Source of the DNA: a virus
DNA length: 59,644 nt
IMG/VR virus record: IMGVR_UViG_3300005563_000039
Coordinates: 1-59,644 of that record
Direction: 5' to 3' (one strand)
Shown here: piece after piece, positions 16,356 through 51,545 of the stretch
Numbering within the stretch: the stretch's first letter is position 1
How the letters are laid out: each line of letters starts with the position of its first letter
Notes under the pieces: model-generated
Told to the model about the DNA's origin: nothing
Seen by the model: the letters and a program-made list of their open reading frames with translations, nothing else
Databases searched by the model: none
Program-made: the position numbers and the translations under genes

Positions 16356-16583
16356 TTAGGAGCTCAATCCAGTGTTCAGAGAGCCATCTGGATGCCAAAT
16401 TTTTGCATCAATGTCGGATGAGCCGGTAAATCCAAGCAGGTACCAGCCGATTCGATTTGTGTTGGGCATCCGGCCTTTTACGTGGATTTCTCCGTTTTTT
16501 GTCACCCTGGCGTTTGGGGCGCCAAATATCGTTTTGACAGCGGAACGGATTTCAGAATCAGTCTTTGTGGTGTGAGTTGTCAT
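16356..16583 (-). CDS. Small hypothetical protein, first of reverse cassette
   Basis: 75 residues from ATG 16583 behind GGAG. Beta-rich fold (ARVTKNGEIHVKGRMPNTN, RIGWYLLGFTGSSDIDAKIW) of unknown function; resembles small proteins encoded by other phages. Driven by the reverse promoter at 16615-16642, away from the rest of the early genes. Confidence 0.65.
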   Translation of the reverse strand: MTTHTTKTDSEIRSAVKTIFGAPNARVTKNGEIHVKGRMPNTNRIGWYLLGFTGSSDIDAKIWHPDGSLNTGLSS

Positions 16584-16614
16584 TTTCATTCTCCAGTTGT
16601 GTTGCGATGATTGA

Positions 16615-16642
16615 AGTATATACCAATATCGAGAGATTGCAA
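16615..16642 (-). promoter_or_regulatory. Promoter of the reverse cassette
   Basis: On the reverse strand TTGCAA (16642-16637), a 16-bp spacer and TATACT (16620-16615) make a good sigma-70 promoter about 30 bp before the first cassette gene. Expressed apart from early and late operons, the cassette could be active in the lysogen. Confidence 0.65.
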
Positions 16643-16671
16643 GAAGTATTTGCATAGGGAAAACACCTATA

Positions 16672-16700
16672 TTGCAATTTCCCAAAATCTGTGGCATAGT
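16672..16700 (+). promoter_or_regulatory. Candidate promoter of the large RNA
   Basis: TTGCAA (16672-16677), a 17-bp spacer and CATAGT (16695-16700) give four of six matches in each box. It would start a rightward RNA near 16707. It is divergent from the reverse-cassette promoter, with a partial inverted repeat (TTGCATAGG ... CCTATATTGCAA) between them that may bind a regulator. Confidence 0.45.
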
Positions 16701-16704
16701 CGTT

Positions 16705-17510
16705 GCCAGTTGGCGGAGCCTGCGCGAAACATTTTGCAGGCGTCAAACGCATGCTGATTTGCCATGCCAGGAAATGGGTGGATCGCAGTTGAAATCACTG
16801 CCTAGGTCAGTCGGCAGCCGTTTGATAGCGTCGTCAAAAGTAAGCCACCTTGGAACCAGCCAGTAGGCCACTGGATAAACTGGGTACTTTGTCGGCTTAC
16901 TTTTGGCGGATGGCGAGACAGGGAAATGGCTGTGTTAGCTCAAAGCGTAAAGAGCACCAGCAAAAATGCTGGAGGGTAGGGGTGCAGATCGAACTCCCTA
17001 TGCGGCACTGGAAACAGATAGAAAACCCTGACAACGGATCGACCGCCAATTGATTTGGTGAATGCGCAGTGCGATGCGCAACACTACCCAGGCCGCAACA
17101 CATATCGTGTTGCGCGAGCTCTAATCCTGGGGTGTGTGGCAAAGCCGGAGATCGCAACCGGCCACCAAAACCATCACATCAGCGGCGGCGTGGAAAGTGA
17201 GCACGCATCCCTCGACGGGGCCGCAGTCGTCATAAACGACCCGGAACTATCGGAATGACGCGAGACCCGTCGCTGATGGGGGCGTAGGGACGATAAGTGA
17301 CTGCAGTAGCTGGATTAACGCCCAGCCCGCTGATGTGATGGTAGACGGCCAGACGGCAGGCGCGCCCTGTCTGGTTCGAGACAAACTCAATTCGTGTAGC
17401 CGCTCGGTGGCTCAAGGCGAGTGAGCCATCAAAATTTATAGCTCATCTACCACGAGTAGACGGAGTATCCGAAGCCCTGATGCAGCAATGTATCGGGGCT
17501 TCAGTCTTTT
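16705..17510 (+). ncRNA. Large ornate structured RNA, GOLLD/ROOL-like candidate
   Basis: About 800 bases without a convincing gene, preceded by a promoter candidate and ended by a strong terminator. Many perfect or near-perfect helices are visible: 16836-16846 with 16894-16904; a tRNA-like arm set at 16936-17000; 17076-17084 with 17107-17115; GCCGG/CCGGC at 17144-17162; a three-way unit 17182-17224; GTCGT/ACGAC at 17226-17240; GCTGG/CCAGC near 17310; a bulged stem 17349-17374; GGCTCA/TGAGCC at 17409-17427; TCTAC/GTAGA at 17446-17460. Giant phage RNAs of the GOLLD and ROOL classes are similar in size and sit beside tRNA genes, as here. Membership of a named class is inference; it could be new. 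Confidence 0.6.
17471..17510 (+). terminator. Rho-independent terminator of the large RNA
   Basis: An 11-bp stem (17471-17481 with 17492-17502, one G-U) and 10-base loop are followed by AGTCTTTT. It is among the strongest hairpin terminators in the window and gives the large RNA a clear 3' end. Confidence 0.85.
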
Positions 17511-17589
17511 AGCCGTTAAGCAACTAGCTTGACGGACATGCGTGGTAGGCCACGACAAGCACTCCAGCTGCAAGCGCTGGAACTATTTT

Positions 17590-17689
17590 GCTGCTGTAGC
17601 TCAGTTGGTTAGAGCGCCCAGCTTGGATTGATCGGTGCCCAGGTCAATCTCTGGGAGGTCGCAGGTTCGAGCCCTGCCAGTTCAGCACC
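17590..17689 (+). tRNA. tRNA-like gene with inserted anticodon arm (possible Pro-TGG)
   Basis: Canonical D arm (TAGCTCAGTTGGTTAGAGC) and T arm (GCAGG TTCGAGC CCTGC) with a normal variable loop AGGTC. The anticodon stem CCCAG/CTGGG encloses 29 instead of 7 bases. If 22 bases are removed after position 37, the loop is CTTGGAT with anticodon TGG. The inserted part has its own inverted repeat (TTGA ... TCAA) and a second CCCAG. The acceptor pairs GCTGCTG with CAG-TT-CAGC, two extra bases on the 3' side. Either a degenerate tRNA, a split or intron-like one, or an RNA that mimics tRNA. Confidence 0.6.
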
Positions 17690-17708
17690 CAGTTTTACGT
17701 GAGCATTT

Positions 17709-18011
17709 ATGAATCTGAAACTCGAAATTCGCCGCAATGCTGATGGAGTAGTGGTTACCGATCTTTGGCCAGACTGGGACTTTAATGTCTTCTGGTGGAA
17801 AGAGGGTAATGCATCGTGCGATTGCAATCGTGGAGAGTTTTTCAATTCTGCACACGGAGACAGCGATTCGGAGTCTGAGTGCGGCGAGGGCCGTTATTCG
17901 GTGCGTCTCTCGGATGCTGATACAGGCGTCTTGCTTTACGATGATTTTAGGCACATGGCGAAAGTGGAAGAACGCGGGGGAGTCGAGGCCCCTGGAAGCA
18001 ATTCCGTGTAG
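17709..18011 (+). CDS. Conserved phage protein, C-terminus running into a tRNA-like gene
   Basis: 100 residues from ATG 17709. LKLEIRRNADGVVVTDLWPD, WDFNVFWWKEGNASCDCNRG and SECGEGRYSVRLSDADTGVL form a compact domain that I recognise from many phages (function unknown; four Cys may bind metal). The natural domain seems to end near residue 80 (LLYDDF). The last ~20 residues are encoded by the tRNA-like gene at 17950-18031 and look unconstrained, so a stop has probably been lost. Confidence 0.75.
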   Translation: MNLKLEIRRNADGVVVTDLWPDWDFNVFWWKEGNASCDCNRGEFFNSAHGDSDSESECGEGRYSVRLSDADTGVLLYDDFRHMAKVEERGGVEAPGSNSV

Positions 18012-18031
18012 GTTCGAATCCTACTGTGCCG
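17950..18031 (+). tRNA. Class II tRNA-like gene (possible Ser-CGA)
   Basis: GGCACA (17950-17955) pairs with TGTGCC (18025-18030), followed by G as discriminator. The D arm is TGGCGAAAGTGGAAGAACGC; the T arm is perfect (GTAGG TTCGAAT CCTAC); a long variable arm GGAA-GCAA-TTCC marks the Ser/Leu class. The anticodon loop can be read GTCGAGG (anticodon CGA, serine), but the stem has an A-C mismatch. Acceptor has six rather than seven pairs, and no CCA is encoded. The 5' part overlaps the end of the preceding protein gene. Confidence 0.6.
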
Positions 18032-18140
18032 AACAGTTTGCGGCGGCGATCAATCAACTAAATGCATGACTTTGCACCAGTGATCGACCGCCGCGATTAA
18101 TTTCTAAGTCTCCCTGATCGGTTGTTACGTCCGATCCTTC

Positions 18141-18171
18141 GCCGCCCCTGGACAACTCGGGCGGCTTTTTT
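18141..18171 (+). terminator. Rho-independent terminator before the late genes
   Basis: GCCGCCC (18141-18147) pairs with GGGCGGC (18159-18165), 11-base loop, then six T. It ends the tRNA-like transcript and insulates, or is antiterminated before, the late operon. Confidence 0.9.
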
Positions 18172-18188
18172 ATTTTCGAAAGCAATCT

Positions 18189-18482
18189 ATGCCTCCAATG
18201 CCCCCTGACATGATGCAAGGCCAGCCACAAGCGCCAGGCCCAGACGATCAATCCCCGCAGGGCATGTCTGTGACCATCACAAAGATGCCAGACGGCACTT
18301 TCTCGGTCGGCCCAGACGATGACAGCCAGGGCGGCGAGCAAGTAGAAGGCGGACAGCCAGAAGGCCAGGAGCCTGGAATGCAGACCGTCAAATCTCTGGA
18401 CGAGGCCCTTAGTCTGGCTGGGCAGATGCTGTCTGGCGGGCCAGATCGGGGTGAGATCGCAAAACAAGTATGGAGCACATGA
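18189..18482 (+). CDS. Hypothetical protein at start of late operon
   Basis: 97 residues from ATG 18189; ribosome site weak. N-terminus is Pro/Met/Gln-rich, the middle reads GMSVTITKMPDGTFSVGPDD, and a helix follows (MQTVKSLDEALSLAGQML). Similar small acidic proteins lie near terminase genes in other phages. Role unknown. Overlaps the next gene by ATGA. Confidence 0.65.
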   Translation: MPPMPPDMMQGQPQAPGPDDQSPQGMSVTITKMPDGTFSVGPDDDSQGGEQVEGGQPEGQEPGMQTVKSLDEALSLAGQMLSGGPDRGEIAKQVWST

Positions 18483-19130: not shown

Positions 19131-19580
19131 ATGGGCGCTCCTGGTAGAAAGAACGTAAGCAATAAAATGGACTATCCGCGCCGCGACTCGTCTACCCCAA
19201 TTGAGCCCAGCGGCCCATATTGGAAGGACAGAAGCGACCCGATGGGCCTAGTCCATGCGCGTGAAAAGCTCGAAATGCAGGATAAGAAATTCGCAGCCGC
19301 TCTGTACCTGATTTTGAAGGCAGCTGATATTGACGCTGCAAATATGTATTTCGACCTATGCCATAGGCACGGTGTTTTTGGCGCTGATGAGCTTTTTGAA
19401 ATTGGTCAGGAAATGAGCCGGATGATCATGGCGACAAAGGGCGAAAAGGCCGAAATCAACTGGGAAGCAGTAGCACTGCGGCACCGGGCTGACAAGAAAG
19501 TTCGAGACGAGTGGGCCGGATTGGATGCAGCGGATCTCCGCGTCATCGCATCAAAATCGCTGCTGGGGTGCCATGACTGA
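19131..19580 (+). CDS. Hypothetical protein before small terminase
   Basis: 149 residues. Polar N-terminus (STPIEPSGPYWKDRSDPMGL), then a helical body (KFAAALYLILKAADIDAANM, YFDLCHRHGVFGADELFEIG). Overlaps the small terminase start. It may belong to the packaging module by position; no family recognised. Confidence 0.65.
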   Translation: MGAPGRKNVSNKMDYPRRDSSTPIEPSGPYWKDRSDPMGLVHAREKLEMQDKKFAAALYLILKAADIDAANMYFDLCHRHGVFGADELFEIGQEMSRMIMATKGEKAEINWEAVALRHRADKKVRDEWAGLDAADLRVIASKSLLGCHD

Positions 19581-20184
19581 GGTCAAGCTGCCGGATTGGG
19601 CAAGGATAGAGGCAGATTTCCGTGCTGGCATCAAAACCCTCCGGCAGATGGCTTCAGAACACGGGTTGTCCGAAGGTGCGATACGTAAGCGCGCCAAGCG
19701 AGAAGATTGGGAGCGTGACCTTGCGGCGAAGATACGCGAAAAGGCCGACTCGCTGGTACGCAAAGAAGCGGTACGCAAAGAGGTACGCAAAGAACAAGGC
19801 GTACCAGAAAAAGAGGTTGTTGAAGCCAATGCAGAGCTTCAGGCGCGCATCCGTAGGGAGCAGCGGACCGACATATCCAGAGGCCGAAAGCTGGTTATGA
19901 CCCTGCTGGAAGAGTTAGAAATGCAGACCGGCAGTATCGGCCTACTTGAGCAGCTATCGGAATTGCTGTACGACAAAAATGACGATATGACAGCGGCACA
20001 GCAAGCCGCGCAAGACAAGCGCATCGAGTTATTCAACAAGGTTATTTCCCTGAGTGGCCGCACTGGCACCATGAAAAGCCTAGCCGAATCGCTTAAAACG
20101 CTGGTTGCCCTGGAGCGTGAAGCCTTCGGTATAGACGAGAAGCGTACAAACGACTCTCAAACCGTGTTCAACATGCAATTCTGA
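19573..20184 (+). CDS. Terminase small subunit
   Basis: 203 residues from ATG 19573. Residues 3-42 carry a DNA-binding helix-turn-helix (WARIEADFRAGIKTLRQMAS, HGLSEGAIRKRAKRE) of the type seen in small terminases. Residues 50-80 include a tandem KEAVRKEVRKEQ, encoded by direct repeats of TACGCAAAGA. The helical C-terminus probably oligomerises. It would recognise the packaging site and load the large subunit, whose start shares a base with this stop. Confidence 0.85.
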   Translation: MTEVKLPDWARIEADFRAGIKTLRQMASEHGLSEGAIRKRAKREDWERDLAAKIREKADSLVRKEAVRKEVRKEQGVPEKEVVEANAELQARIRREQRTDISRGRKLVMTLLEELEMQTGSIGLLEQLSELLYDKNDDMTAAQQAAQDKRIELFNKVISLSGRTGTMKSLAESLKTLVALEREAFGIDEKRTNDSQTVFNMQF

Positions 20185-21638
20185 TGGCTACCATCACTTA
20201 CGTTGCCGAGGCCACGGCCAAACTATTTCACCGGTCAAACGCCTTTGTTCGTGGGCTGCGTGGCCCGATTGGAACCGGCAAATCGGTGACGTGCTGCATG
20301 GAAATCATGCGCAGGGCGCGTGAGCAGGAGCCTTTCGAGGGTGTTCGCCACTCTCGCTGGGCGGCAATCCGGAATTCGTATCCAGAACTGAAGTCCACGA
20401 CGATTAAGACGTGGCAAGACTGGGTTCCGGATGATGTTGCTCCTATGCGATGGGATGCCCCAATCACCAGCGTTTTCACGGCCAAGCTGCCAGATGGCAC
20501 ACGGATTGAATGCGAAGTGATGTTCATATCACTGGACCGTCCAGCGGATGTGAAGAAGCTGAAATCCCTGGATCTTACTGGCGGATGGATTAACGAGGCG
20601 TCAGAGCTTCCGAAGGCTATTTTGGACATGTTGACGGGTCGTGTTGGTCGCTATCCGTCGAAGGCTCAGGGGGGCGCAAGCTGGTCGGGCATCATCATGG
20701 ACACCAATTCACCGGATGATGACCACTGGTGGTATGAGATTGCCGAGACGAATAGGCCGGATGGGTATGAGTTTTTTGCCCAGCCTGGGGCGCTGTTGAA
20801 GGTCGGAGAGAAGTACATACCGAACCCAGCTGCTGAGAATGTGAAAAACCATATCCTTGGCTATGACTACTGGATGCGCCAGATCCCCGGCAAGGATGCT
20901 CAGTGGATCAAGGTCTTTGTTCTGGGCGAGTACGGTAGCGTGCATGATGGCAAGCCGGTCTATCCGGAGTACAACGATTCTCTGCATGTCGGCGAGCTGC
21001 AACCATTGCCAGGAGTCCCACTCCAGATTGGTCTGGACTTTGGCCTTACGCCTGCGGCTGTGATCGTCCAGAACGACGCACGCGGCAGGTTGCTGGTGAT
21101 CGATGAGCTTTGTGGCGAAGACATGGGAATCAGCGGGTTCCTGGAGGATGTGTTGATTCCACAGCTGATGCGGGTCTATCCAGAGTGGTGGGATAAAAAA
21201 GACGAAATGATCGAATGCTTCGGTGACCCAGCAGGAGCACAGCGGGCGCAGACGGATGAAAAATCCTGCTTTGATGAGGTCAAGGCTGTGAAGCTGAAGA
21301 TCCGAGGGGCTAGAAGCAATGCATGGCTCCCACGGCGCGGCGCAGTGGCGTGGTTCCTGTCAAAGCTATCCGGTGGTCAGCCGATGTTTTTGATAGACCC
21401 ATGCTGCAAGGTGTTGCGAAAGGGTTTAAACGGCGGCTACAAATACCGCCGCATTCAGGTGGTTGGCGAAGAGCGATACACCGAAGAGCCCATGAAGAAC
21501 AGCTACTCTCACCCGCATGACGCTCTGCAGTATGTGGCTATGGAGTCTGGTGGATTGCAAGCCACAAAAGAGAAAAACAAGCCACGCGAAAAGGGCCGCT
21601 CAGCCCGCGAAGTGCTAGACGATGTAGTGGGCTACTAG
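20184..21638 (+). CDS. terL: Terminase large subunit
   Basis: 484 residues. ATPase P-loop GPIGTGKS at about 27-34. Walker B region near LDLTGGWINEAS (~133-142), where the acidic residues are in INEAS. The nuclease domain starts near QIGLDFGLTPAAVIVQND, with further acidic residues at IDELCGED and ECFGDPAG, and SYSHPHDALQYVA near the end. It cuts concatemers and pumps DNA into proheads. Length and motif order fit podovirus terminases of the Terminase_6 type. Confidence 0.93.
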   Translation: MATITYVAEATAKLFHRSNAFVRGLRGPIGTGKSVTCCMEIMRRAREQEPFEGVRHSRWAAIRNSYPELKSTTIKTWQDWVPDDVAPMRWDAPITSVFTAKLPDGTRIECEVMFISLDRPADVKKLKSLDLTGGWINEASELPKAILDMLTGRVGRYPSKAQGGASWSGIIMDTNSPDDDHWWYEIAETNRPDGYEFFAQPGALLKVGEKYIPNPAAENVKNHILGYDYWMRQIPGKDAQWIKVFVLGEYGSVHDGKPVYPEYNDSLHVGELQPLPGVPLQIGLDFGLTPAAVIVQNDARGRLLVIDELCGEDMGISGFLEDVLIPQLMRVYPEWWDKKDEMIECFGDPAGAQRAQTDEKSCFDEVKAVKLKIRGARSNAWLPRRGAVAWFLSKLSGGQPMFLIDPCCKVLRKGLNGGYKYRRIQVVGEERYTEEPMKNSYSHPHDALQYVAMESGGLQATKEKNKPREKGRSAREVLDDVVGY

Positions 21639-50295: not shown

Positions 50296-50490
50296 GTTGT
50301 GCAAATTTGTGCAGCGGCTGAGTACCTCACTCTGGGCATTTGAACAGGCTTTGTACGCCAAAGTTCTTGTAACTCGTTGATTTTGTTGGGTGGTGTCTGC
50401 AAATGCCACCAGACCGTTATCCTGAACCGGGGTAATCAATTTTGCGAATTCTCCAATGAAGCAGATTATTCTGTTGTGCAAAGTTGTGCA
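50296..50490. repeat. Two 18-bp direct repeats upstream of integrase
   Basis: GTTGTGCAAATTTGTGCA (50296-50313) and GTTGTGCAAAGTTGTGCA (50473-50490) differ at one base. Each contains two TTGTGCA half-sites 9 bp apart. They flank 160 bp and lie between two divergent units. They are candidates for integrase arm sites in attP or for operators. The gap 50255-50519 holds no gene. Confidence 0.7.
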
Positions 50491-50519
50491 TTTTTCTCCA
50501 AAAAGGATTAAGGTACGAT

Positions 50520-51545
50520 ATGCGCATGGCATCAATAAAACAGTACCGAGGCAAGACCTGGAGGGCGATTGTGCGCCGCAAGGGATTCCCGCCACAATCG
50601 AAAACGTTTGAGCGCAAGGCAGAGGCGGAGGCCTGGGCGGCATCCATTGAGGCAAGGATGGGCGTGTCTGAATTCGACGGACTGCAGCTGAAAGCGGCCA
50701 AAACAGCCACTGTCTTGTCAATTTTCCAACGCTACGCGGCTGAGGTAGCGCCGAAAATGAAAGGCAAGGGTGAATCCAACATTTTAAAGCGGCTGATCCG
50801 GGATGCCAGCTTCATGCCGCTGCTGTTGAGCAGGGTTTCGCCGCAAGACATTCGACAATGGCGAGACGATCGGGTGACAGAGGTTCAGCCCCAGTCCGTT
50901 CACCGGGAGCTAAACACCATCAGCGGTGTTTTTACCTACGCGATGAAGGAATGGGGCGCGCCGCTGGCAGCCAACCCCTGCCATCTGGTCAGCAGATTCA
51001 AGGGCGCAGACAAGCCGCGCAATAAGCGCTGGATGCAGCCAGACATTGACCTATTTCTAAAAACATGCGAGTGGTCGGCAGATTCCAAGCCCAAAAAGGG
51101 CCGCGACTATGTTGGTTGGGCGCTGCTGCTGGCGGTCGAAACAGCGATGCGCGAGGGTGAGCTATGCATGTTGTTAGTCTCAGACTTCAGACCCAAAGAA
51201 AAATGCGTGCACCTGAAAGACACCAAGAACGGCGATGAGCGCAATGTGCCTTTGTCAAAAAAGGCACTGGAATACTTCAAGCACTTGTGCGACGGACGTG
51301 GAGACGATGAAAAAATATTCCCCATCAAGGCTACCACGCTTTGTGAGTACGTGCTGAAAGTGCGTAGAGCCTGCGGACTTGAGCATTTGGTTTTTCATGA
51401 TGCGCGGCATGAAGCTGCAACCAGGTTATCAGCAAAGCTGTCCAACGTGTTGGAGTTGTCTGCCGTAACAGGTCACAGGTCCCTGCGTTCGCTCAAGAGG
51501 TACTATCACCCAACCCCTGCGGATATTGCCGGGAAGCTTGACTAG
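50520..51545 (+). CDS. int: Integrase, tyrosine recombinase
   Basis: 341 residues from ATG 50520 behind AAGG. N-terminal arm-binding part (IKQYRGKTWRAIVRRKGFPP), SAM-like core near 60-170 (VLSIFQRYAAEVAP, VHRELNTISGVFTYAMKEWG), then the catalytic domain: Arg in LAVETAMREGELCML, Lys in LKDTKNGDERNVP, HxxR in HDARHEAATR, His in TGHRSL, and Tyr in KRYYHPTP. It integrates the phage into the host chromosome with the adjacent excisionase-like protein. The attP core is not identified. Confidence 0.95.
   Translation: MRMASIKQYRGKTWRAIVRRKGFPPQSKTFERKAEAEAWAASIEARMGVSEFDGLQLKAAKTATVLSIFQRYAAEVAPKMKGKGESNILKRLIRDASFMPLLLSRVSPQDIRQWRDDRVTEVQPQSVHRELNTISGVFTYAMKEWGAPLAANPCHLVSRFKGADKPRNKRWMQPDIDLFLKTCEWSADSKPKKGRDYVGWALLLAVETAMREGELCMLLVSDFRPKEKCVHLKDTKNGDERNVPLSKKALEYFKHLCDGRGDDEKIFPIKATTLCEYVLKVRRACGLEHLVFHDARHEAATRLSAKLSNVLELSAVTGHRSLRSLKRYYHPTPADIAGKLD

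Follow-up and report, generated by a model that had tools for sequence, protein, structure and literature searches.

A large structured phage RNA built around a tRNA-shaped core, and its relatives in phages and prophages of Proteobacteria

What is encoded by the stretch without a recognizable protein that lies between a small leftward ORF and the terminase genes of a phage? The window analyzed here is the whole virus record, of 59.6 kb, and all coordinates are positions in it unless another locus is named. It carries phage genes, among them an integrase (50484-51545) and the small and large terminase subunits (19525-20184 and 20184-21638). The initial annotation had taken the stretch to be non-coding, and in line with this the ORFs inside 16672-17573 had no PHROG match. 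It had also proposed a large folded RNA gene, which our folding analysis confirms: the 841 nt from 16690 to 17530 fold far beyond chance on the + strand (MFE -348.5 kcal/mol, z -7.2, with 0 of 20 shuffles as good), whereas the - strand folds much less well (z -3.7).

The gene as we propose it runs from 16707 to 17502 on the + strand, like all the features described below, and consists of a 5' domain, a tRNA-shaped core, a second domain, and a terminator; we infer its exact 5' and 3' ends, and its core and second domain have homologues in other phages. The 5' domain (P0-1, 16707-17052) is closed in the MFE structure by a 10-bp helix (16707-16716/17043-17052) and abuts the core. It contains a long hairpin (16835-16905), of which the initial annotation had listed the arms 16836-16846 and 16894-16904; these pair perfectly at 11 of 11 positions, and the helix really has 12 bp (16835-16846/16894-16905). 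A possible tRNA-derived cloverleaf in the same domain (16929-17006) is weak, was traced by eye from its pairing, and was found by neither ARAGORN nor the Rfam tRNA model. The second domain (P0-2, 17171-17341) is closed by a 15-bp helix (17171-17185/17327-17341). A shorter helix suggested earlier, 17182-17186/17220-17224, is indeed complementary, but it probably does not form because its 5' side lies within the 15-bp helix. Two further hairpins listed at the outset are present, one at 17349-17374 (CCAGAC..GUCUGG) and one at 17409-17427. The latter has a 5-bp stem and a 9-nt loop and, with the helix 17336-17341/17426-17431, may form a degenerate second core (17336-17431), a low-confidence reading from sequence inspection that model R2 (see below) does not detect. 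The strong intrinsic terminator (17471-17510) held up, with 14 pairs at 17471-17502 and then a T-rich tail, and the promoter placed at 16672-16700 was unsupported in a consensus scan.

The tRNA-like genes said to lie nearby are there. The first (17594-17680) matches the Rfam tRNA model with 42.6 bits and is not called by ARAGORN; it has an irregular acceptor stem and an extended anticodon arm (17617-17655, 39 nt), and is unlikely to be an ordinary decoder. The second is a tRNA-Ser(CGA) at 17948-18034 that overlaps the end of a 100-aa ORF (17709-18011). The protein of this ORF, used as bait, had no relatives.

With the window RNA as query, blastn against phage and plasmid sequences returned tRNA tails only. 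The closest phage with enough flanking sequence (L003, TerL 77%) has a 570-nt non-coding stretch directly upstream of tRNA-Phe and tRNA-Gly, and it has two short motifs in common with the window. A 24-base pattern made of the two motifs, searched over 2.9 million viral contigs, was found only in the contig of L003 and in one other locus, L084. Beyond the searched pattern, L084 and the window have further motifs in common: an 18-mer that forms one helix with a 14-mer, and a 13-mer that lengthens the second motif. Blastn with the L084 RNA led to named phages and to Burkholderiales genomes, and one further pattern gave over 100 viral loci. A covariance model (R2), built from 28 sequences that include neither the window nor L084, matches the window at 17053-17170 with 51 bits (E 1.2e-9), the next best match in the neighborhood scoring 6.9 bits. 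The same model matches L084 twice, the second copy lying 7 nt before a tRNA-Asn, and several loci hold two or three cores. The window RNA almost certainly belongs to this broad class of phage and prophage RNAs, whose members show no conserved protein in the stretch; the presence of such a protein had been named at the start as speaking against an RNA.

The second domain of the window also has a counterpart in other phages, namely the P0 domain that adjoins the core on its 5' side in L084, L148, and L118, with which it shares the loops GGAARG and AUYAA and stems altered with compensation. Since a domain of this type follows the core in the window and precedes it elsewhere, either the order is permuted in the window or a second, degenerate unit (17336-17431) is present. 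R2 did not find L003, which is probably a divergent member since it shares a homologous upstream hairpin (75% over 118 nt, E 1e-19) with Aeromonas ST4, a phage that has a core. The upstream gaps of L016 and L011 gave no convincing member, and a weak blastn match in L008 (68% over 69 nt) was rejected as a chance match in coding sequence.

The diagnostic core (118 nt, 17053-17170) is a tRNA-shaped cloverleaf. In the window, a closing helix P1 (17053-17060/17163-17170) encloses a D-arm-like hairpin (17063-17079), a variable arm with its own hairpins where a tRNA has its anticodon arm (17080-17143; its length differs widely among members), and a T-arm-like hairpin GCCGG-AGAUCGCAA-CCGGC (17144-17162). 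The layout is constant in 76 distinct cores: an 8-bp P1 that ends in GGUG/CACC, AA, a D-like hairpin with the consensus GCGNA-6 nt-UNCGC, the variable arm, and, next to the 3' strand of P1, a T-like hairpin whose sequence is commonly GCCGG-AGAUCAGCA-CCGGC. The loops of the D-like and the T-like hairpin form a 5-bp kiss that is fully paired in 74 of these cores. Five kissing types occur (GCUGA/UCAGC, GUCGA/UCGAC, ACUGA/UCAGU, UCUGA/UCAGA, and UGCGA/UCGCA), the last of which, made by 17070-17074 and 17152-17156, is unique to the window and complementary at 5 of 5 positions.

The check for covariation on aligned homologues that had been proposed for this RNA came out in favor of the fold. Among 42 aligned sequences, 97.8% of the cells are paired, against 89.8% in shuffles, where entry into alignment A2 required at least 6 of the 8 pairs of P1 and a completely paired T stem, the kiss being unselected. 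Compensatory changes on both sides affect 11 of the 23 pairs (4.6 in shuffles), and 69 cells carry double changes (20.7 in shuffles), these cells counting sequences and not events; 0 of 500 shuffles match. When the partner columns are slid by 1-3 positions, pairing falls to 27-50%. The first search pattern had constrained a portion of the D-like hairpin and left the T-like loop free, and the core also has conserved unpaired bases. At the level of sequence comparison, this establishes the core fold as a cloverleaf locked by a kiss between D-loop and T-loop.

The class is wide in phages and prophages of Proteobacteria, uncurated, and absent from Rfam. The core occurs in HK620, where it lies in the late leader between the annotated pR' and tQ, in mEp460, Klebsiella Magnus, Aeromonas ST4, and many others, and its isolated carriers are phages of Klebsiella, Escherichia, Salmonella, Pseudomonas, Hafnia, Erwinia, Enterobacter, Aeromonas, and others. 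The mEp460 version alone is found in 851 of 5,426 complete E. coli genomes (about 16%), on chromosomes and plasmids; the listed matches have no annotated feature under them, and one example lies between ymfK and yfdP. The core was also found in 8 of 399 genomes of the order of genome G001 (the order being taken from a Chitinimonas record) and in 7 of 398 genomes of its phylum. The carriers include classic laboratory phages (HK620, HK633, mEp460), the recent BASEL coliphages Bas77-80, and plasmids, yet the class has stayed unannotated.

Upstream, unrelated sequences in different phages form a helix, P0, that ends at the core; the longest such helix averages 10.6 bp over 73 loci, against 8.1 in shuffles. 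The 5' hexamer of P1 has an exact upstream complement in 19 of 74 loci (3.4 in shuffles, 6.5 with permuted strands), and judging from these complements the 5' strand of P1 can in many loci pair into P0 instead. In the 200 nt that follow the core, terminators are enriched eightfold (25/75 against 15/375 in the background). Of 78 non-redundant loci, 10 have a tRNA on the same strand no more than 1 kb away, compared with 2.8% in the background, and none is called in the other 68, so that a tRNA neighborhood is enriched, but not the rule; in four loci the tRNA starts 6-12 nt past the core. In CWW26, phi3.2, and Bas80, the RNA lies on the strand opposite to both of its neighbors.

Other elements occur in and around these loci. 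Seven of 77 loci (L106, L108, L111, L124, L138, L194, and L220) have a second conserved module, GGCACAUGCGUCG..AGCGGUCCGGGG..GGGUAGCCGGAAUGUGCAAG, which lies 165-525 nt before the core and looks like a further structured domain. The related phage L008 is without the core. Its positions 1140-1530 are non-coding and fold strongly (z -7.9 in one 200-nt segment); a terminator-like hairpin ends this stretch and a tRNA-like element comes next, and a different RNA may occupy the site there. In Klebsiella Magnus (L105, 1400-4660), some 3 kb annotated with tiny hypothetical ORFs only precede tRNA-Met and tRNA-Arg and hold the core, tRNA-like pieces, and the known small RNA STnc100.

A minority of members, to which the window does not belong, contain pieces that resemble tmRNA or 16S rRNA. 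Tag frames like those of tmRNA lie upstream of the core in five loci (HK620, L109 2797-2832; Klebsiella Magnus, L105; L137; L149; L171). They read ANEEMYLAVA, ANDDVVLMAA, ANDEQFLAVA (twice), and ANDDLMLMAA, each up to a stop, with the open frame intact and a PK1-like stretch before it. ARAGORN called no tmRNA in any scanned locus, including L105, L109, L149, and L171, and these loci possibly encode an unrecognized phage tmRNA. In L106 (about 2445-2484), L194, L203, and L220, the variable arm of the core contains, in sense orientation, a look-alike of positions 243-282 of E. coli 16S rRNA (82.5% over 40 nt, E 1e-7). This is the region of h11, which is bound by the proteins uS17 and bS20. A general mimicry of rRNA and tRNA was rejected: apart from the 243-282 piece, blastn matches to rrnH and to the ssrA region were weak and only somewhat above those of shuffles.

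What might such an RNA do? We lean, by a little, towards a late, stable, trans-acting RNA of a class related to STnc100 that carries mimics of translation RNAs; the mechanism of mimicry in trans is the economical reading and, taken alone, seems to us about evenly balanced. The RNA would be transcribed late, accumulate as a stable species, and act in trans on the host translation apparatus, presenting tRNA-like and other mimics that may bind or distract factors directed at tRNAs or ribosomes. Its core has the shape of a tRNA with a reinforced elbow and sits inside a longer RNA, surrounded by variable domains that differ between phages. Action in trans is supported by the RNAs that oppose both neighbors, by the enrichment of terminators, and by the several copies in some loci, while the link to translation is supported by the tRNA shape, the tRNA neighbors, the tag frames, and the 16S look-alike. 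On the other side stand the restriction of tag frames and 16S look-alike to a minority that excludes the window, the 68 of 78 loci with no tRNA called nearby, and the missing CCA end of the core. The initial annotation had the RNA expressed apart from the protein operons, which agrees with the several isolated phages where it runs against both flanking genes, but not with HK620, whose copy in the late leader also allows a role in cis.

As an account of the class, a cis-acting leader that controls or processes its own late transcript (by termination, antitermination, or release of a downstream tRNA) through exchange between P0 and P1 is unlikely. The position in HK620, the upstream complements of the P1 hexamer, and the tRNAs that begin just past the core speak for it; the orientation against both flanking genes in several phages, the failure to find a downstream gene in common, and the P0-1 domain of the window, which does not overlap P1, speak against it. 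We also find it rather improbable that the cloverleaf is a sacrificial target for defense nucleases or toxins that cut tRNAs (PrrC-, VapC-, or colicin-like). A decoy would suit the tRNA shape, the fast-changing arm in the anticodon-arm position, the multiple copies, and the presence in phages and prophages, but conservation is highest in the elbow and the closing helix, not in an anticodon loop. A recombination hotspot that gathers pieces of tRNA, tmRNA, and rRNA without any RNA function would produce tmRNA-like and 16S-like pieces, a modular mosaic, and a permuted order as in the window; it is very improbable because the core covaries strongly, including in the kiss, and the conserved unpaired bases and intact tag frames also argue against it. 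A bolder reading, which we hold to be less likely than not, is that in this widespread and undescribed class the kissing-elbow core serves very different phages as an adaptable platform for mimics of tRNA, tmRNA, and 16S rRNA that act on the ribosome or tRNA pool of the host. With members in laboratory coliphages, the role of large phage RNAs becomes testable in well-studied E. coli systems.

The window RNA has next to no likelihood of being a divergent GOLLD or ROOL, which its size, phage location, and nearby tRNA might suggest, as these families, OLE, HEARO, and other large RNAs have no match over 16500-18200 (1.7 kb) at E <= 10 with permissive filters, and GOLLD and ROOL none in HK620 at E <= 5. 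At the gathering threshold, the RNA matches no Rfam 15 family, and the only Rfam matches are the two tRNA-like genes downstream. To our knowledge, a tRNA-shaped core is not a feature of GOLLD or ROOL. Both are large ornate RNAs of phages and prophages, often near tRNA islands (PMC12286853); the window RNA resembles them in being large, ornate, phage-borne, and close to a tRNA, but has no match to them in sequence or structure. The initial annotation is thus partly supported: assigning the RNA to the GOLLD/ROOL type was wrong, while its alternative, a new giant RNA next to tRNAs, was right in substance, given covarying homologues and no conserved protein.

With tRNA, the core shares the cloverleaf and the contact between D-loop and T-loop. 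It differs in that a five-bp kiss replaces the usual tertiary contacts, the T-like loop has 9 nt, an arm of very variable length replaces the anticodon arm, and the whole is internal to a longer RNA. Neither the Rfam tRNA model nor ARAGORN gives a match over the core, which is not an aminoacylated tRNA because a CCA end in a constant position is lacking. tmRNA (ssrA) is similar in its tRNA-like domain and in the tag-like frames beside the core in five members; unlike tmRNA, the core lacks a CCA end and the window a tag, and neither ARAGORN nor Rfam detects a tmRNA in the window.

The closest known relative is STnc100 (RF02076), a little-studied sRNA of gammaproteobacterial prophages whose expression was verified by Northern blot in EHEC (PMC5331693). 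Its Rfam consensus, compared with alignment A2, has the core layout of the class: an 8-bp closing helix that ends in GGUG/CACC, an AA spacer, a 5-bp hairpin with a 6-nt loop, a variable middle, and a 5-bp hairpin, CCGGGAGGCACCCGG, directly before the 3' strand, as well as the location in prophages. The best match of R2 in that part of Klebsiella Magnus is exactly its STnc100 (17.9 bits, E 4e-4 in 800 nt). The STnc100 model has no match in the window at E <= 10 and none in HK620; the T-like loop of STnc100 has 5 nt against 9 in the class, and the window RNA is far larger. We read STnc100 and the class of the window, from their shared layout, as sister families, and the class gives STnc100 a structural frame.
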